64,000 bases of DNA, taken from NCBI GenBank assembly GCA_942159475.1, contig OW804096.1, positions 112,256,194 through 112,320,193 of the forward strand, written 5' to 3'. Shown piece after piece: positions 14,451 to 57,860 of this stretch. Every line of letters starts with the position of its first letter. The stretch's first letter is position 1. Under the pieces are notes generated by a model. That model was not told the origin of the DNA. It searched no databases and was given only the letters and a program-made list of their open reading frames with translations. The DNA comes from Sthenelais limicola (Eukaryota; Annelida; Polychaeta; Phyllodocida; Sigalionidae). Made by a program: the position numbers and the translations under genes.

Positions 14451-14956
14451 GGTAGTAGCACTGTGGCTGCACATTGCTAGTGATATGATTGGGGCCAATG
14501 CATGCGTAGCGGTGGAAAGTGGCCAAAATCGTAATATTCTATAGTTGTGTGGACATCAGCCCTAAATTACCAGTAGGGTAATAGTCAGGGTATACTGATT
14601 CCGGGACTGGAATTCTTCGTCACATGAACATAAATTCGTTTAAAAGTTAAATGCGATATAGGGGGCCTCCGGTAATGTCCTTGTCTCGACCTTATGGGTC
14701 TGTTGCACCTGCGCCAACTCTCAGGAGAGTTACCTCGACGGCAACTAGTGCTGCCATCTTTTGTGCGCTCTTCGTCAAGAATTTGTTTTGATATATTTGG
14801 GTTAAAAGAAGGTTTAAAACCCCCATCGGAGGAACATGTACATAATGAACTACAGCAATACAACAGAAAACACAACCCTGACTCACTTCTGCCCTCATTT
14901 GTATATGCCCCATCTGAGGAACATGTATAATGCAATTGGATCCCTATGATGGCCCT

Positions 14957-15290
14957 GTAGAGTGAGAGTGAGAGTGAGAGGGAGAGGGAAACAGAGGAGA
15001 GGGAGCAGGAGAGAGAGCGGGAGCAGGAGAGGGAGCAGGAGAGGGAGTGTGAGAGGGAGAGGGTGCAGGAGAGGGAGTGGGAGCATGAGAGAAGCGGGAG
15101 AAGGAGCAGGAGAGGGAGCGGGAGTGGGAGTGGGAGCGGGAGTGGGAGCGGGAGAGGGAATGGAAGAGGGAAAGGGAGAGGGAGCAGGAAAGGGAGAGGG
15201 AGTGGCACAGGGAGAGGGAGCGGGACAGGAAGTGGGACAGGGACAGGGAGAGGGACAGGGAGCAAGACAGGTACAAGGACTGCAGTGACC
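14957..15290. repeat. Purine-rich minisatellite (GGGAGA/GGGAGC units)
   Basis: Variable 6-nt units of the form G-A-G-x-G-G cover about 330 bp near the 3' side of Helitron 2. One strand is almost pure purine, so triplex or G-rich structures are possible. Confidence 0.95.
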
Positions 15291-15611
15291 AAACAAAGCA
15301 TCTTATTAGGGTCCCATTTGAGGTATAAATGTTACAGATACAGTTACAGATTAAATAATACAGATACTAAGTTACAAAGAGAAGTTGAACGAAAAAGATA
15401 GTTGGAGAGGGAACAAGGAGAGATGAAGATGTGGGCCCCACTGTCCCACTAGCAAATCCCATGCATAGCACAGGTATTTGCTAGTATCTATAATACTAGA
15501 CTGAAATATTAAGTCATTCATAGAAGAATAAGTGTTTATTTTTATACTCCCCAAATACTTCACTATAATTACTCACTATGATTAGTTTGTAACCAGACCT
15601 CGATACCTGCT

Positions 15612-16509
15612 TCCATATAATATATAGGAAGAGCGATTTCTATGAAAAGAGGTAGAAAAGAGGGGTTTCTTTGTGTAGAAAAGAGGGGTTTCTTTGTCTC
15701 ACATGTTCTCGGAATTTGTTGTTTTACAAACCGTTTTACTCATCTGTAGAGTTCTGTCCACCCTGTCTGGAGAACATCGTATATGGTTTCTTAAGGTATC
15801 TGGGGTGAAAATGTCATTTTGAAGCCTTTTTTAAATTGGGATCTACACACTCTATTTATAGCCAGGGAAAGCCCCCATGAGATACTACGCCATTGGCCAC
15901 TACATGCAGAGGAGTGGGAGAGTGAAGAAGAGGGGTGGGAGAGGGTGGGGGTATTGGGGAGGGGGAGGGGAGGGGAGGGAGAGGTTGTAGGAGGGGAGAG
16001 TGAGGAAAAGGGAGAGGGTGGGAAAATAGGAGAGGGGAGGGGGAGGGAAAGAAGAAGGAGAGGGAAAAGAGGGGAGGGAGAGGAGGTAGGGGAAGGGAGA
16101 GAGAGCGGAGGGAGAGAAAGGGAGGAGGGGAGCATGAGGAAGAGGGGAAGGAGAGTAAGTTTAATAGAGGAGGAGAGATAAAAGGGGTGAGAGGGAGGGG
16201 GAAGGTGGTGAGGGACAGAGAGCAGAGTGGGATGAGAGGGAGAATGAACATATGAGTGGGGAGGAATCAGATAGGGAGGTGGAGAAGAGGATAGAGAGAA
16301 GAGGGGGAGGGGGAGAAAAAAAGACGGGAGGGAGAGGATGGGGGAAAGTAAAGGGAAGGGGAAGGAGAGGGAGGAAGGTGACGAGGTGAGAGGAGAGGGG
16401 GCGAGGGGAGGGACAGGGAGAGAAAGAGAGGGGGAGAGGCAGGGAGAGAGGAGGAGGGGAGAGAGAGCGAGAGGAAGAGTGACCGTCCAGAGGATGGGTA
16501 CTTTGCTAG
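15612..16509 (+). mobile_element. Non-autonomous Helitron 3 (second family)
   Basis: It starts TCCATATAATATATAGGAAG and ends GGGTACTTTGCTAG followed by T. The subterminal hairpin is of the CCGTCC..GGACGG type, decayed here. The internal part (AGGGGTTTCTTTG..ACATGTTCTCGGAAT.., GGGATCTACACACTCTATTT) is shared with copies at 22951, 51937 (minus) and 53630. It carries a long purine minisatellite before the 3' end and no coding capacity. Confidence 0.82.
15905..16480. repeat. Purine-rich minisatellite inside Helitron 3
   Basis: About 575 bp of GGGAG/AGGGG/GGAGAG units, nearly all purine on the plus strand. Long frames such as the 242-codon minus-strand one (Ser/Pro/Leu only) come from composition and are not genes. 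Confidence 0.95.
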
Positions 16510-17098
16510 TTTCCCACATATAGAAAACGGGCTATTTTTAACCAGTGCGCAGACTGGCATCTACCGAAAAGCGGGCCGCCACAAAGCGACTGCACTAAAT
16601 TGCGACATATATTGTGTCATGCCTCGCTGCTCATGTCTCCCTGCAATCTCCACCACAGGTTCTGTGCAGGATGGTGCTCCTCTCACCAATCTCCACCATA
16701 GGCTTATATAGATGTAACTCAGTAGCTTTTACACCTTCCACTCTCCCCTCTCCTTCTGTGACTCTCCCTCTCCGTCTCTCTCCTTAATTATACACCGTGT
16801 AGGCCTAAATATTAATCTTAATGTAATAGGTATAGTGGGGAGGTGGAGGAAGAGTAGGGGGTGGAAGAAGAGGAAGTGGGTGTAGTAGTTGGTCGGAGAG
16901 GGGGAAAGGGAGGGGGACGAAAGGGGAGGAAGAGTAAAAAAAATTATTAATCAATGAGTCAAAGTCAAATCATAGTCAAAGAGCAGAGCTTTCGAGGGGT
17001 CGGACGTGTCAAACGACGCTCCCACAAAATCACCGATTGCTACCGTTTTTCAAGAACTTTTTCATTCCATAATATCACCAAGGACTTGATATACGTTA

Positions 17099-19033
17099 GT
17101 GATACAAGTGAGATGGGTGACAAGTAAAATCAGTAAGGAATTATACGATTTTTGTGACATTCTGTGCGTAAAAATGGATGGAATCAGCGACATTTCGGAT
17201 ACAGAATTACACGAGAAAGGCTTTCTCACACATGACAAACAGAGGGCTTTATTTAATCCAATAGAAGGGGACCGCGAGGTATGTAAAACACGGCTATGTA
17301 CCTACAGCCAACCGATAGACAATACATATGTGAACAAGGGCGCATACAGGATTACTGCTAATCCGTGCACAATTGAGGATTTGAAAGAATCGCTCGAGTT
17401 TACACAGGCTAACCAAGAGTTGATGAAAAGAAAAATGGATGAAATGGTTAGACGAAAGCAGGAGAATAGTATGGTCATGAAGGAAATTCGATTAGAAAAC
17501 CTCCATCTGAAGAGAGAGTACAGAAATCTTGAAGAAACTCGTTTCGAATGTGAGATTGAGAGGAGAAAAATGAATGTAATACTGTCTGGACTGGAATACA
17601 GACGCAATGAAGACTTGCTAGCAACTTGTGTCAATGTGTGTCGAGATATAGATCAAAACTTCTCCAAAGAAGATCTACTAATGACGGAGAGGATGAAAAC
17701 CTTCCAAAATGGACAGAGACTGGTACGGATACAGTTTGTGTCTAAAGAAGCTAGAGATAATGTCTACTATAACAGATCTCAATTGAAAAACTCCAGATGG
17801 TTTGATAAAGTCTACATAAACGCCGACCTACCGACCACTATCAAAGAAAGAAAAGAAATGCTTTCTACAGTAAGAGCCCAAATCAACGAAAAGGGTACTA
17901 AAAAAGTGGATGGAATGTACAAGGACAGAATTTCTGTTGATGGTGTAAGTCTTCGTTATGATCAACTTGAGGACTTAGATAAAGGATACCGTTTATCAGA
18001 TGCCAGAACGAAAGAAATTAATGGAAGTATTTACTTCAGCTCCGAGTACAGTGTGTTGAGTAATTTTTTTCCTTGTCGACTACGAGCAAATGATATGGAG
18101 TTGATATCTATTGAACAAGCATATCAGTACGCTTGTGCCATCTCTCTAGGGCGCCCTGATGTCGCTAAAGACATATTCCTAAGCAAGGACGCACGAGCCT
18201 CCAAAAGGCTCTCATATTCGGCTAAGAATGATGAGGACTGGGATGCTATCAAAATTAGGGTAATGCGGGTCTTAATCAAATGCAAGTTCAACCAAAACCC
18301 AGAGATGAGGCAAGAGTTGTTGAACACAGAGAAAAAACCGCTAATAGAAGCTACAAATTGCGAGTTTTGGGCCTGTGGGTCTACCCTAAAGTCAAAAAAA
18401 ACCATCGCAGGTCAGCATAATGGATGTAATATGGTTGGCAGAATGTTAGAAGATTACAGAAGTTACGCCAGTGGAGAACTAACCAGGTATGGACTTTTGA
18501 AAGATTCAATTATCGATCATTTTTTAGTAAAGAGCAATATTGATGTGACAGCAAGTGTATTAAATTATTCTTTATCAGATCACCAACCGACCTACATAGT
18601 AATGAAACGAAAAGTAACAGTGAAACCTAAGATAAATATTACTGGGAGATGTTATAAAAACTATTCGGATGAAATTCTACGAGAAAAAATAGGAAAAATT
18701 GATTGGACTGAATTTTATACCATAACTGACTCGAACAAATCATGGGATATCATTTATAAAAATATTTTGAGAATTGCGGATGAAGTAGCACCGTGGAAAA
18801 AGTTTAAAGAAAGAAGAATAAAACCGATTTGGTACACAACCGAATTGACTGAATTGAATAAAAATAGAGAAAAATTATACAAGATAGCTAATCGAACAAA
18901 AAATATCAATGATATTGCAGCTGCCAGAAATGCAAAAAGTATATGTAATAATAGACCTAAAAAGGCAAAATCAGACTATTATAAAAATCTGTTGACGATA
19001 CACAGAAAAGACTCTGACACAGAAAGTTATTAA
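17099..19033 (+). CDS. LINE ORF1-like protein with coiled coil, RRM-like and NADAR domains, fused to the endonuclease tail
   Basis: The frame has 644 codons. Residues about 90-150 form a charged coiled coil (LKESLEFTQANQELMKRKMD). Residues about 155-290 resemble the RRM and C-terminal domain of L1-type ORF1 proteins (MNVILSGLEY..., LVRIQFVSKEARDNVY). Residues about 308-455 match the NADAR/YbiA family (PF08719): SVLSNFFPC, ISIEQAYQYA, SKDARASKRL, DWDAIKIRVMRVLIKCKFNQN, FWACG, NMVGRMLEDYR. Residues 460-505 (SIIDHFLV..., SLSDHQPTYIVM) are the C-terminal end of an APE-type endonuclease, and the rest is linker to the RT. So the endonuclease core is deleted and the flanks joined in frame. NADAR members act on ADP-ribose-linked guanine or riboflavin-related N-glycosides; the role here is unknown. 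Confidence 0.85.
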   Translation: MIQVRWVTSKISKELYDFCDILCVKMDGISDISDTELHEKGFLTHDKQRALFNPIEGDREVCKTRLCTYSQPIDNTYVNKGAYRITANPCTIEDLKESLEFTQANQELMKRKMDEMVRRKQENSMVMKEIRLENLHLKREYRNLEETRFECEIERRKMNVILSGLEYRRNEDLLATCVNVCRDIDQNFSKEDLLMTERMKTFQNGQRLVRIQFVSKEARDNVYYNRSQLKNSRWFDKVYINADLPTTIKERKEMLSTVRAQINEKGTKKVDGMYKDRISVDGVSLRYDQLEDLDKGYRLSDARTKEINGSIYFSSEYSVLSNFFPCRLRANDMELISIEQAYQYACAISLGRPDVAKDIFLSKDARASKRLSYSAKNDEDWDAIKIRVMRVLIKCKFNQNPEMRQELLNTEKKPLIEATNCEFWACGSTLKSKKTIAGQHNGCNMVGRMLEDYRSYASGELTRYGLLKDSIIDHFLVKSNIDVTASVLNYSLSDHQPTYIVMKRKVTVKPKINITGRCYKNYSDEILREKIGKIDWTEFYTITDSNKSWDIIYKNILRIADEVAPWKKFKERRIKPIWYTTELTELNKNREKLYKIANRTKNINDIAAARNAKSICNNRPKKAKSDYYKNLLTIHRKDSDTESY

Positions 19034-20743
19034 GGAAATTGACACTGGAATTACAAATAACATCAATAATATTAATGTGAATGACAAAGTGATCTATGGA
19101 CAAGAAATGGTGAATATATTGAATGAACACTACTGTGAAATAGGTAATAAAATTAATGAGGAAATTGGTACACATCCCACCGAAAGATTTGATGAAGGCT
19201 TTGGCGGAGAGTTAAATACTATAATAATAGATAAAGGTAGCATAGAAACATTAATCAGCAGAATCGAAATCAAGAAGAGCTCAGGTTGTGACTTAATTTC
19301 AAGTAGAATATATAAGGATTGTTTCAAAATAATGATTGATCAATTAGTTGAATTATATAAAAGGTCAATAAATACTGGTATATTCCAGACAAAATGGAAA
19401 TGTGCAAATGTAGTGCCAATACCAAAGGTAACAAATCCAAAAATGGTTAATGACACGAGGCCAATATCCCTCACGCATATTGGAGGAAAATTATTGGAAA
19501 AAATTGTAGTAGAACAGCTGATGGACTTTTTGAGATATAAAGATGTATTAAGTAGTCAACAAAAGGGATACCAAAAAGGAAAATCAACAACAGACGCACT
19601 AGTGGAATTAATAACTGATTTAAACTTATCATGTAATCAAAAGAAAATTACCATTGCGTGCTTTGTCGATTTTAGTAAAGCTTTTAACTCTGTAGTACCG
19701 GCATTGATGTTAAACAAATTACAAGATTTAGGTGTTGCCCCTGGGCTTCAAGCATGGTTTGAATCGTATTTAACAAATAGAAGGCAGAAAGTAAAATTGA
19801 ATGGATTATCCTCGAATGTATTAGAAATGAACTACAGAGTACCACAAGGATCAATACTCAGGCCAATTATGTATTTAATTTATGCTAACGATCTGAAACA
19901 TTTAAATTTAAAATCTAAGTACTTACAATACGCTGATGATACGGTTTTTTATTATACAGGTGATAACCTTGGTGAATGTGAAGAAGCATTGAATCATGAT
20001 ATGAGTCTTTTTTATGAATGGAGTCTAGGTAACAGATTACTAGTAAATAGTAAGAAAACTAAATTGATGTTGTTTGGTTTAAGTAAATATATGAATGATA
20101 ATCGCCCTGATGTTGATGTCAAGCTAGGAGGAGAAAAACTGAATATTGTTAGATCATATATACTTACCTTGGTGTAGCGATAGATGATAGATTGTTGATG
20201 AAGCAGCAATATAATAATGTAGTCAAACAAATAAATGATAAGATTTACACGTTTAGGAAGATAAGAGCTAATTTAACGAAGTCTGCTGCAATATTGATTG
20301 CTAAATCGAAACTACTCTCTCTGTTCGGTTATAGTTTATTCAGCTTATGTCCTCTAACAAACAAAGATCTAGGAAAGCTACAAAAAATACAAAATAGGAT
20401 TTTATGAATTGCACTGAGTTGTGATTACAGAACATGTAATGCTGATATACTGGCATCAACAGGTGTGATGAATATTAAAGAAAGAATGAGGTATAACCAT
20501 TGTATCATAGGACATAAGGAAATATATATTAAGGGAAATGCTATTCTCCCTAATAGAATGACAAGACAAGCTAATGCTCCGATAATGGGAAATTTTAACC
20601 CGAAAAATAGTAGAGATGAAAAATCGCTGAAAAATTGTATTATAAAGGCCTGGAATTGTCTTACATCAGAGTTGAGATTAAAAGGTGACGAGATTGTATT
20701 TAAAACTATCCTAAAGAGAAATATAAAAGAATATTGTACTTAA
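19010..20743 (+). pseudogene. LINE ORF2 reverse transcriptase and C-terminal region, broken
   Basis: After a -1/+2 frameshift near 19010 the frame continues through KVIKEIDTGITNN into the RT. Landmarks: KKSSGCDLIS, RPISLTHIGGKLLEKIV (fingers), QKGYQKGKSTTDAL, FVDFSKAFNSV (motif A Asp present), VPQGSILRPIMYLIYANDL (motif B; usual G-P is R-P here), YADDTVFYYTG (motif C intact), LLVNSKKTKLMLFG. A second frameshift near 20165 leads to GVAIDDRLL..., a TGA interrupts after QNRIL (20405), then AWNCLTSELRLKGDEIVFKT at the C-terminus. These features place it in the CR1/L2/Jockey group of non-LTR elements. It cannot make active enzyme as it stands. Confidence 0.88.
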
Positions 20744-22950
20744 GGGATACAAGCCCCTGCCACCCACTCCTATATATAAAATTTCTCCTTTTCTATCCTC
20801 TCTTCTGCCCTTTCTGAGTCTCCATCCTGCTTCCCCCCCCCCCCTCCCCTGACGCCACCAGTACCCCGACTGTAATTTCCTTCCCACTTTCTAGTGTGAA
20901 GATTTTGTGTATATAAAAATTGTAGTAAATCTCAAGTAAAGTGTCTCATCATGTTGAGAAAAATTAGTTACTATGATTGTATTGTACATACACGTGATAT
21001 GATGCTCGAATGTCAAAATTTCTTTGGAACTAATGTCTTACCCATCTCATCTCGACCTATGACAAGATAATTAATATAGGCAGGAACCCTTTCATTTCAT
21101 CATTTCGTACAACATTCCACCTCATACTTCATCTTTTCTCATCCTTCTTTTCTTTTATAAATGTTCTGTTAATTAGTAGACAAAAGTGGCTTATAACAGG
21201 TACATTAATTTGTGAAATGGCATGAGGTATATATATAATGTAAGGATATTTCTGTTAGATTATTGATACTATATGTACACTCTATCCCTCGAATATGCTG
21301 AATGAAAATCAGGGTGCTAAGAACATCACCTCTGAGGTGACAGCATCAAAAATGTAATATTGAGCCTGAATAAATTCTGTTAAAAAAAATTGTATTATTC
21401 GTCTGTTCACTGTCTAACCTCTATCTCCAACTCCCTCCCCCCCTCCCTCTCTGTCATCTCTCCCCCCCCTCCTCCTCCCCCCCCCCCCTCCCCTCTCTCT
21501 CTCTCTCTCTTTCTTTCTCTCAGAGAAAGAATGTACCCATACACACATTACTCCTCAGTGAATTTATAAAAAAAATAGATGCCATGCCATCCTTTTACAT
21601 GTTCTAATTGTACCATATATACCGTCATGTATTAATATATATATATATATAATTATATTATGTATATGAGTAATTCTCTGAAACGGGCAGCATTTGATTT
21701 CAGCAGGGGATTTTTTTTAAAGAAAAGATTAAATTCGTTGAATCTATATAATCTTTGGTGTACGATTAGAAGGGAAAAAATAAAATTCGTTGAATCTCTA
21801 TAATCTTTGGTGTACACTTAGAAGGGAATATCAGTAGGCCTAATAATGCAGACGAAGTTTGGAAAGTATCATTTTAAAGTTAAACAGCATGTGTATTTAT
21901 AAAACGCATACATGTATGAGTTTTATCAGGGGCGGACCCAGGAGGTGTATGGACTCTCGCGGGGGAGGGGCACAAGCAGTACTCATTCAGGCCATTTGTA
22001 TGTATTGGTTTGCAGGGGGAGAGGGCTAATTAGCTCAATTTTACTGAATAAACAAAGTTGTTAGCAGGCCCAAATATATCTTTGAAATACAAAAGAGCTC
22101 TTCATTTTAAAGGAATAATTCTGGCCAAAATTTAGCTTGTTACAATTAAAGATTTTAGTTGCCTGAATGACACTGAACGACCATTATGTCTCTGGTTATA
22201 TAAATATTAATAAAAAGAAAAGCTGGTAAAAATTATTATTTTGGCTCAGGCTGATCATCATTTAGATTGTAAGTAATGCCCCTGATGGGTAAAAGCCACC
22301 ATATATAGAGGGGCCTAGTGGCATGCTCTCCCGGAAAAAAATAGAGTGCCATTTGAAAACATTCTACTGATTTTACAGGGCTCTGAGCCCCAGATCGAAA
22401 ATTACTGACTTTTTACAGATAATTACTGACTTTATGGACCTTAAAATCGCACAATCGAAATAACTGACTTTATACTGACTGTGGGAATTATATGAGAGTG
22501 TAGTGGGTCCAAGCTACCATCTAGGGGCCTGTGGGGGCATGATCCCCCAGGAATTCTATATTGTGTATTGGGTGTATCAAACTATTTTCACAGTTAAGGA
22601 TATAACATACAATTCTATACAATTTCTATTCACCACCACGTTTTGAGAATTGACAGGGAAAATGTTATTTAAATTTCTAAAAGTGTGTTTCCCGTGCGAT
22701 ATAAACGCAGGGGATGTACATACTTATTATGTACGTTCTGTAGTGTAGGAGTAATATCTCAAATACATTGATGAATTTGAGATTAGGAAAAGTGTTTTGG
22801 AATAAAATATATATGGTTTATTGACATGTGAACAGAGTGCAATATGTTTAATAAGACTAGGACAGAACTACAGAAAGACTTGGGAAATTCTAAAAATAAT
22901 CATGTTAGTCTAAATATAATATATTGCAGTCATTTGTCCCATTGGGACTA
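20744..22950. other. LINE 3' UTR and non-coding DNA with simple repeats
   Basis: Contains C-runs (20836-20850, 21478-21490), a CT microsatellite (21490-21520), a TA run (21637-21655), and two near-identical blocks (AATTCGTTGAATCT.TATAATC at about 21731 and 21784). A piece at 21930-22040 begins with GGGGCGGACCCAGGA, a motif common at the ends of hAT-like MITEs. No gene seen. Confidence 0.5.
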
Positions 22951-55365: not shown

Positions 55366-56991
55366 TCACACCCGTAAAAACGAGTGGATAACAATCAAAA
55401 TAAAAGAGGAATGAGCCAGAAGCTTTGATGTGGCACTGCTTGATGTGTCTTCTGATGTCTGTGGCAGCTGCCAGAAGCAAACAATCTCGTCATTCACTCC
55501 ACTGAGTGTCCCGCATTCTCTCCTCACATCTGAGTTGGACTTAAAATCATCCAACTCTATATCAGAATATTCCGTCGGTGCCGCACACCTACCGACAAAA
55601 GTGGTGATGTCATAGCGAACCACATGGTAGAAGGAACAATCACATGTGACCGGATTTCTAAAAAGCTCCACGCGTTCGAACTGACATTTATTTTCTAGGA
55701 AAGTCATGTTCTTTACTTTATTGTTATTGAGATCAAGAACCGCAGGTGCCCTGAGGCCCTGAAAAGCATTAGCATCCACCTTTACTATCTGGCAGTATCT
55801 CAACGATAAATGTCGTACTGAGATCACTTTGAACACGTCCTCCTTTACTGAGGGGAATGCATTTCCAGAGAGATCCAGTTGATTTAAATTATGCATCTTA
55901 TCAAAAGGGATGAGGGGTAGATTGTTAACGTTCAGATCCAGTCGGGCCAACAGGAGCGTTTCAAGATTGTTTTCTATTCCTGTGAATACATCGGCTACCA
56001 CTTTGAACATATTGCCGCTGAGATCGAGCACTTTTAACTTGCCCAAATTTTCCAAGCATCCAGGTGAAATCTCTGAAATCATCGCATCTGATATTTTCAA
56101 TATTTCAAGATTTGTAAGTCTCGACATGAGTGTGCATGGAACTGACAAAAGGTTGTTTAAGGATAGAGTTAGGGCTTTTAGGCTGTCGGTGATACCCTCA
56201 AACGCGTTGGGGTCGATGAAGGAACTGTTTGGAAGGCGAGAATCACTTAATGTTAGGGTTTCAAGGTTGGAGAAAGATTTAAATGGTTTCCCTTCAATAC
56301 TAGAAATGGGATTGTTATCCAGATGAAGAAACTTCAGAGCTGTTAGTGTGAGGATGGCCTCTGGAATTGCCTTAAGTTTATTGTCTTCCAGTCTCAATTC
56401 AAACACTTGAGGCAAACCAATGAATGCGTTGCTGTCAATAGAATTAATGCCATTTTGTTTCAGCAGTAGCTGTTCTAGACGTGGAAGCTCTCCGAAAACA
56501 GCCGATTTGATATTAGTGAAAATCCCAGTTTTGATCTCGCTGAGATCAAGAGCTTCAACTTCTACTATTTTAGAAGTAAAAACGTGCGGTTCAGTTATAA
56601 GCTGGGTCCTCCTCAAAGATAAATATTTCAAACCTCGAATCCCGGAGAAGGCCTCAGCTGATACGTTGCCTATCGGGTTGTCGGAAAGTTGGATCCCTTC
56701 AACATGCAGCTTTTGGAACGCATGGCCCGGTACTTGAGTAATCTGATTGCGGTCAAGGTAAAGTCTGAATATGGGAGTTCCCTGAAGGCCATCAAGCGGG
56801 GGGATTTGGGCCAACCCCTGCTTCCTACAATCGACAACAAGAGATGATCCGTGGGTAATAACGTCACCCTCTGGGCCCTCTGTTTCTTCATTGCAAATAC
56901 AAGGTGAAGGACAAACGAAGAGACCCGCAGTGTAGGGGACCACACATAGTACGGCCAAAGCTGCCAGAAAATATTCACGACCACGACACAT
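55366..56991 (-). CDS. LRR protein with LRRNT/LRRCT caps and probable GPI anchor
   Basis: 541 residues in one coding exon. The ATG at 56991 is chosen because a splice acceptor (TTTTCATTCCAG) ends directly before it and a signal peptide follows (REYFLAALAVLCVVPYTAG); the longer upstream frame is intron. Then an LRRNT cap (CPSPCIC...VVDC), about 14 repeats of LxxLxLxxNxL type (for example LRLEDNKLKAIPEAI, LKVLDLSGNMFKVV, LNQLDLSGNAFPSV), and an LRRCT cap (NPVTCDCSFYHVV...RCAAP...REC). The tail is a Ser-rich spacer and a hydrophobic end (SKLLAHSSFILIVIHSFLRV) without a cytoplasmic segment, fitting a GPI signal. Layout resembles GPI-anchored receptor-like LRR proteins such as connectin-type or VLR-like molecules. 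Ligand unknown. Confidence 0.9.
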   Translation of the reverse strand: MCRGREYFLAALAVLCVVPYTAGLFVCPSPCICNEETEGPEGDVITHGSSLVVDCRKQGLAQIPPLDGLQGTPIFRLYLDRNQITQVPGHAFQKLHVEGIQLSDNPIGNVSAEAFSGIRGLKYLSLRRTQLITEPHVFTSKIVEVEALDLSEIKTGIFTNIKSAVFGELPRLEQLLLKQNGINSIDSNAFIGLPQVFELRLEDNKLKAIPEAILTLTALKFLHLDNNPISSIEGKPFKSFSNLETLTLSDSRLPNSSFIDPNAFEGITDSLKALTLSLNNLLSVPCTLMSRLTNLEILKISDAMISEISPGCLENLGKLKVLDLSGNMFKVVADVFTGIENNLETLLLARLDLNVNNLPLIPFDKMHNLNQLDLSGNAFPSVKEDVFKVISVRHLSLRYCQIVKVDANAFQGLRAPAVLDLNNNKVKNMTFLENKCQFERVELFRNPVTCDCSFYHVVRYDITTFVGRCAAPTEYSDIELDDFKSNSDVRRECGTLSGVNDEIVCFWQLPQTSEDTSSSATSKLLAHSSFILIVIHSFLRV

Positions 56992-56999
56992 CTGGAATG

Positions 57000-57860
57000 A
57001 AAAGTACAAGAATATGTATGTATGTTCATAAAAAATAATATACAACATGTCTATTTGTTGACTTTGTTGATGTATGCAGTCAGGTCCAGATGGCCACATT
57101 CAGTCTATTCTATTGAGTGTGTCTGACATATGTTGTCAAATTTGAGTAGAGATTTATAGAGTTTATCAGTACTTCATAAGCTCCTAGCCTAAGGCATACG
57201 CAAGGTATAACACATGAGAAACACCAGCGCTAAACTTTTTAATTCAGTTTAACAGAAGTTGATTTCTTTTATAATAGTGTATCATTCTATGGATAACGAT
57301 TTTAGTATGACCCCTATATCTGATACAATTTTCGGTTAAATACAAGAACTAGATATTTATTTCCAATGGGAATTTCTCTTTCATTCTTGAAGCTTATAAG
57401 AGTCATATTTGAACTTGGCACTTTCAAGAAACATTCTAGATTGACTCATTGCATTTGAATCGTTTATATTTTGCTAAATATACTCCTGAAGATAACTTCA
57501 GATGTGTATAAATATTCAACCCATAGCCCTCAAAGTTGGTAGATGTGATGTATTCATGCCATTGGAAGTGCTCACCACCAAAGAATAAAAACATTTTGAG
57601 CAAGGGATTGTAGATAAATGACTGTGAATAATATAAACTCAATTCATTACAACACATCGCATTCTATTGCCCTTGGACATCATAATAATAATGTGTACTG
57701 AACCAAGGTGTACATATTTAAAATGGGTAGAATTAAATAGAAAAATTACCCTTGTTTATTACCTTGAATAAGGGCCCAACTTATGTATACATGTTTAAAG
57801 TTAAATATGTTTATTTGCTGAGATATGGCTATATATATATTGCATACGCATGGTATGCAG
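57000..57860. other. 5' region of the LRR gene
   Basis: Contains the intron upstream of the coding exon and presumably a non-coding first exon, whose donor I could not place. No other gene seen. Confidence 0.35.

Follow-up and report, generated by a model that had tools for sequence, protein, structure and literature searches.

In bacterial conflict, the reversible attachment of ADP-ribose to bases of DNA and RNA is established. NADAR domains have been shown to remove ADP-ribose from guanine in DNA (PMC11543638) and to reverse guanosine ADP-ribosylation in RNA (PMC11833690), so the chemistry that an earlier sequence-only reading of the locus described here had invoked is sound. In the toxin-antitoxin pairs DarT1-NADAR and YarT-YbiA the NADAR is likewise a guanine-ADP-ribose eraser, but it sits in a bacterial operon with its own writer (PMC11543638, PMC11125620), and the role of animal NADARs remains open (PMC11125620). 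Among RNA-based replicons, nidoviruses, hepe-like viruses and picornaviruses of invertebrates carry a NADAR of their own, although as part of a virus polyprotein with an RNA-dependent RNA polymerase (PMC9503650). A retrotransposon-borne NADAR conserved in its lineage has been reported in Ectocarpus Gypsy, which differs in being an LTR element with the domain N-terminal in Pol and with no RNA chaperone joined to it (PMC12477816). The closest case is that of Crassostrea gigas, where several Tx1 LINE families carry, according to Repbase, a YbiA-type NADAR in ORF1, for which a role in the processing of RNA intermediates was suggested (PMC12477816); the sequence-only reading, which was not aware of any characterisation of the association, is to be amended in this respect. 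We recognised no other report of a LINE NADAR in the literature, judged by titles and the beginnings of abstracts, with subscription papers and preprints mostly outside the scope. The Crassostrea account is a short passage drawn from Repbase hits to Tx1 LINEs, whereas the elements described here have GVPQGS(I/L)LGP-like reverse transcriptase (RT) motifs, form many families and were analysed for selection and structure. The present analysis establishes the identity and fold of the domain, its distribution over many families, the conservation of mutationally important positions, purifying selection and a correlated divergence of NADAR and RT. ORF1 proteins of types II and IV in the Jockey superfamily also have a coiled coil, RRM and C-terminal domain (CTD), with an SGNH-type hydrolase in some (PMC4120745, PMC3905857), but the word NADAR is absent from the text of PMC4120745.

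The locus lies in a 64,000-nucleotide stretch of the genome of the annelid Sthenelais limicola, hereafter the window. A Pfam profile search of its open frame gave a significant match to PF08719 (E 3.3e-22, 79.9 bits), and the AF2 model together with PDB and fold matches showed the YbiA fold, confirming the domain as a NADAR of the YbiA subfamily inside a LINE ORF1-type protein, as the sequence-only reading had proposed. The L1-type coiled coil and RRM-like region predicted to precede it were also seen in the model and in matches to 2ykq, 2w7a and 2ldy, and a CTD was recognised in addition (Table 1). The succession of coiled coil, single RRM and CTD places the protein among type II (L1-type) ORF1 proteins by fold, because Pfam transposase 22 (PF02994) gave no match up to E 1 in the window frame or its ORF1 part. 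ORF1 presumably starts at the ATG of MDGISDISD, and MDGI(S/N)DISD is the common start of the window copy and its relatives L069, L070 and L072, which also share the motif of the endonuclease (EN) remnant. ORF2 of the window copy is frameshifted near 19.0 kb according to the frame table and its RT frame stops early, with DNA homology to relatives extending past the end of this frame to about 20745-20758. No convincing target-site duplication was found around the copy; an 11-base A-rich match (16935-16945 / 21381-21391) was not counted.

Table 1. Features of the LINE copy in the window (window coordinates).
Feature	Position	Strand	Basis
LINE copy	16972..21389	+	extent shown by homology with other genomic copies
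LINE copy, 5' limit	16972 (minimum)	+	reach of the alignment to L071
LINE copy, 3' limit	21388 or 21389	+	homology stops there in 7/7 relatives examined
AATAAA	21369-21374	+	precedes the A-tract that forms the 3' limit of the copy
ORF1 remnant	17174..18478	+	from ATG (MDGISDISD) to the deletion junction
Coiled-coil helices of ORF1p	17372..17566	+	AF2 model, helices 67-93 and 99-131
L1-type RRM	17567..17827	+	model and PDB matches 2ykq, 2w7a, 2ldy
L1-type CTD	17828..18004	+	model and PDB matches 2ykq, 2w7a, 2ldy
NADAR domain	18005..18475	+	Pfam match 18041-18460, PDB and fold matches
Deletion junction	18478..18480	+	ORF1 just past NADAR fused in frame to the EN C-terminus
APE-type EN, C-terminal remnant	18480..18613	+	45% identity over 183 aa to ORF2 of the L029 element, residues 205 onward
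RT, in another frame	18996..20177	+	RVT_1 19431-20072, E 6.9e-27

The surroundings of the element contain several features of their own. Purine-rich (GGGAG-like) and pyrimidine-rich low-complexity tracts flank it at 14585-16540 and 21400-21520, the purine-rich ones giving rise to long, spurious-looking open frames, and immediately downstream, at 21722-21825, a 52-base unit occurs twice in tandem with 90% identity. Farther away, the minus strand at 55366-57099 holds a 577-codon open frame for a leucine-rich-repeat protein (LRR_8 E 2e-46) that resembles an exon of a host gene.

The LINE copy in the window has decayed and lost an internal part, and it cannot be functional. Its own genome (1.13 Gb, 161 contigs) was searched at the DNA level with 17099-20740 as the query, scoring 40 of 372 first-look candidates, and 44 matches were listed. 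Matches of the family break at query position 1380 (1373 in one) / 1382, with the two blocks 2.3-2.7 kb apart in ten other places and about 4.3 and 6.2 kb apart in two further ones, and among the matches listed the window alone spans the 1380/1382 join, so that about 2.46 kb is absent from it relative to its relatives. Four relatives were retrieved around the break point. L069 and L070, which match the window at about 79% DNA identity, have an open ORF1 of 693 codons with a tail past NADAR, followed by a 255-codon frame with SGNH-like motifs and by an ORF2 that starts with EN; L072 is organised likewise except that a stop interrupts its ORF1, and the ORF1 of L071 is broken. In the relatives ORF1 runs about 225 codons beyond the point of the window's junction. 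The NADAR-EN fusion was rejected as a normal element protein since its join occurs in no other listed copy. Two copies about 97% identical to the window element start only near 19.2 kb, which is consistent with 5' truncation during target-primed reverse transcription.

The domain is far from restricted to this copy. The PF08719 search of the same genome yielded 5561 first-look candidates, and all 150 that were scored lay above the cut-off, 148 of them with no stop inside the match; 110 were in open frames of at least 500 aa, 86 of at least 600 aa and five of less than 200 aa. These 150 places are a lower bound because the window's own place, at 79.9 bits, is not among them. All fall on contigs C1-C9, which hold nearly all bases of the genome, suggesting nine chromosomes. 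The best 30 loci of the 150 form 11 groups at 80% or more ORF1 identity, with NADAR at the same position within ORF1 in all 11, and their ORF1 identity with the window copy is 27-42% over the parts that align. The groups have multiplied recently, since pairs within them reach a DNA identity of 99.84% where both copies lie on one contig (L043-L044) and of 99.75% where they lie on different contigs (L044-L045).

Elements with ORF1-NADAR followed by EN and RT were also found. An EN-RT ORF2 lies downstream of all eight loci examined, open over 948-1002 codons in six and broken in two (L046 and L052, assigned by eye); the direct NADAR-EN join in the window is a deletion product. RVT_1 matched in 6/6 full ORF2s scanned, and EN families of Pfam were above cut-off in four of the six, just below in L048 and without a match in L049. 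With an APE-type EN and RT in ORF2, and AATAAA followed by an A-tract at the 3' end, the organisation agrees with that of Jockey/CR1-type LINEs. The RT motifs GVPQGS(I/L)LGP and YADD, which we take to be typical of this type, would also place the element in the Jockey/CR1 superfamily, the clade assignment depending on that assumption. Among PDB structures the window RT is closest to human L1 ORF2p (8e-10), but we know of no Jockey/CR1 RT in the PDB.

Active-site residues were numbered on the Phytophthora NADAR (8bau), as in PMC11543638. Across the 30 loci E43, K75, W89, E125 and W133 are always retained, position 50 is K or R in 29 (Ile in L025) and position 130 is D in 24 and N in six; this is an upper estimate of conservation because the loci are the best-scoring of 150. 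Two ADP-ribose contacts of 8bau are not kept, with Arg in 0/30 loci at position 79 and in 2/30 at 93. The window NADAR has E43, W89, E125 and W133 and a Cys at position 50, where L069, L070 and L072 have Arg, and the region around D130 differs throughout its family. In six database proteins aligned (P0004 was left out), E43, W89 and E125 are present in all, W133 in five (Phe in P0003) and K/R50 in four (Gln in P0006 and P0007). E43, K50 and E125 correspond to E88, K95 and D171 of the E. coli C7 NADAR, in which changes of K95 and D171 cost activity and E88A had a minor effect in vitro, while mutants of all three failed at cell rescue (PMC11543638). Most catalytic positions thus appear to be retained in the LINE NADARs aligned.

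Nei-Gojobori counts for 44 pairs within seven sets of loci also support purifying selection on NADAR in the LINE lineages, as judged from codon comparisons. In diverged pairs with unsaturated synonymous sites the dN/dS of NADAR is 0.03-0.08 (0.04 for L018-L028, 0.08 for L025-L031, 0.03 for L017-L029, dS 2.2), similar to the 0.04-0.12 of the part before NADAR and below that of the ORF1 tail, which is 0.25-0.55, or 0.14-0.25 in certain pairs whose tail dS exceeds 2. Between families, many comparisons are saturated. The most recent pairs hold too few changes, so their ratios scatter, with NADAR values of 0.39 (L025-L026) and 0.37 (L038-L039), and L023-L041 has one non-synonymous and no synonymous change in the domain. 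For the family of the window, NADAR gave 0.03 between window and L072, and between L069 and L072 it has 16 non-synonymous against 69 synonymous differences (dS saturated), with 0.05 for EN, 0.05 for the SGNH-like ORF and 0.09 for the tail. Such low ratios show that the lineage of active copies makes use of the domain; they do not tell its function. The proposed recruitment of a NADAR by the LINE therefore stands, as it recurs in related elements, is kept by selection and retains most catalytic positions. Neither observation that the sequence-only reading had named as refuting it, a missing PF08719 match or a domain confined to one copy, was made; counter-defence, raised in that reading as a possible purpose, may be the reason for the recruitment.

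Amino-acid differences among these RTs reach 73%, which suggests an old association with NADAR. Across nine elements the NADAR and RT distances correlate (r 0.785; one permutation in 20000 gave as high a value); here the NADAR and RT rows of 'L037' come from two copies of one family, the RT being taken from the L036 element, whose DNA is 98.7% identical over 3 kb, and for L023 and L036 the RT entered as a partial frame. Two kinds of ORF1 carry NADAR, since the database proteins include, as judged by eye, coiled-coil-type ORF1 with NADAR (P0002, P0003, P0006, P0007, P0010) and CCHC zinc-knuckle-type ORF1 with NADAR (P0005, P0008, P0011 and the shorter P0004). Some animal NADAR entries in databases may be transposon proteins and not host genes. 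The 473-aa database protein P0009 has two matched NADAR stretches.

In 7/30 loci (L020-L023, L029, L030, L041) ORF1 is followed by a DSRG-containing frame of 124-236 codons, and L052, located downstream of L036, holds another of 260 codons; no DSRG-type frame was found in the other loci of the 30, including the groups of L018, L031, L038 and L043. Among the residues invariant in six sequences, P0014 included, are D21, S22, G43, G70, N132, D190 and H193 (numbering of the L023 frame), and the DS, G, N and D..H residues among them would correspond to the SGNH blocks with their catalytic positions. The label 'SGNH-like' is based on motifs with these presumed roles because support from Pfam is weak or absent: PF13472 gave E 0.16 for L052 and 2.4e-7, just below cut-off, for the fused P0014, and no match for the frames of L023, L029 and L069, with L020 and L030 outside the scan. 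SGNH esterases occur in ORF1 of CR1 and L2 LINEs (PMC4120745, PMC3905857), and in contrast to these type IV ORF1 proteins several families here have the SGNH-like frame as an ORF of its own behind ORF1-NADAR. The pairing is echoed by P0014, a database protein of 852 aa that combines NADAR and a GDSL-type lipase match. NADAR, alone or before a separate SGNH-like ORF, joins the repertoire of LINE ORF1 modules.

Coating of the element RNA by ORF1p is known for L1. If ORF1p of the living members does the same, a NADAR hydrolase would be held along the ribonucleoprotein, where it could strip ADP-ribose off guanines in the RNA and, during target-primed reverse transcription, in the new cDNA, and the template would be kept readable. 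We lean, though not far, towards such an erasure of guanine ADP-ribose from element RNA and new cDNA as the role of the domain; its catalysis, its substrate and the origin of that substrate, in host defence or in other base ADP-ribosylation, are what we infer. Against it count the loss of the contacts R79 and R93, the altered D130 region in the window's family and the missing K/R50 or W133 in P0006, P0007 and P0003. Part of these same observations, the lost arginines and the replacements in the three database proteins, would suit a non-catalytic module that binds nucleic acid or a ligand for assembly or localisation of the ribonucleoprotein, any chemistry being incidental, and other LINE ORF1s do bear accessory modules of unclear role, PHD and esterase (PMC4120745, PMC3905857). 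We consider this rather unlikely, as E43, W89, E125 and W133 persist in 30/30 loci of 11 groups whose ORF1s are 27-42% identical to that of the window, as expected of an active site.

Alternatively, the hydrolase could target small molecules or RNA-repair products (ADP-ribose derivatives, NAD-derived signals) and not element nucleic acid. YbiA is an N-glycosidase on riboflavin intermediates (PMC9303266, citing earlier work) and soluble ADP-ribose derivatives were proposed as substrates of phage NADARs (PMC9503650), but for NADARs of eukaryotic RNA viruses the latter source prefers macromolecular targets, and fusion to a presumably RNA-coating protein, as opposed to a free enzyme, would favour a substrate bound in nucleic acid; action on small molecules or repair products seems improbable to us. 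Capture of a NADAR gene by chance in one LINE copy, with no meaning for the family, is hardly credible: the window copy alone, with its NADAR-EN fusion, would look like that, but no support was found, and the same ORF1 position in 11 groups, the purifying selection and the presence in at least 150 genomic places rule out a single-copy insertion.

Under the preferred reading, erasure from element nucleic acid, a host enzyme could be the writer of the mark. The animal enzymes known to write guanine ADP-ribose are clam CARP-1 and butterfly pierisins. N2-guanine ADP-ribosylation of DNA was found in six edible clams, from one of which CARP-1 was cloned (PMC11209040), and that NADAR erases the marks made by CARP-1 or pierisins is assumed in PMC11543638 and not tested there. 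The Scabin/pierisin-like profile PF22596 matched neither in the S. limicola genome nor in 14 control genomes, a search therefore without a working control, and no ADP-ribose writer was recognised in the LINE frames read. We would tentatively extend the proposal, as a possibility short of an expectation, to a LINE radiation in a host that marks invading or new nucleic acid with guanine ADP-ribose and whose LINEs carry the eraser in their RNA-coating protein. This would be the retrotransposon counterpart of phage and RNA-virus anti-ADP-ribosylation and would suggest that animals defend themselves against retroelements by ADP-ribosylating nucleic acids, in a manner so far undescribed. A selected-for NADAR in many LINE families of one animal is in any case a natural place to seek a substrate and a writer enzyme.

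Lastly, a NADAR tree of 34 sequences was built with 11/30 loci and 11/15 viral loci, omitting P0004, P0007, P0012 and P0013. The viral contigs hold 15 NADAR loci, which are without exception short (140-181 codons) and were regarded as phage NADARs. In the tree the phage NADARs group together with a support of 100, whereas deep nodes among the remaining sequences mostly have supports of 23-46. P0006 and P0010 (support 92) join L073 (support 80), a grouping that hints at more than one NADAR acquisition, as far as this phylogeny goes. L073 (C1:94853700-94857200, minus strand) is a stand-alone NADAR ORF of 162 codons (PF08719 E 3e-31) adjoining an ORF of 223 codons that weakly matches a phage endonuclease (phrog_13076, 1.4e-6). 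Neither ORF1 nor EN-RT was seen next to L073, a 162-aa NADAR frame occurs at three places on C1 among the scored matches, and the locus is perhaps another mobile or viral element.
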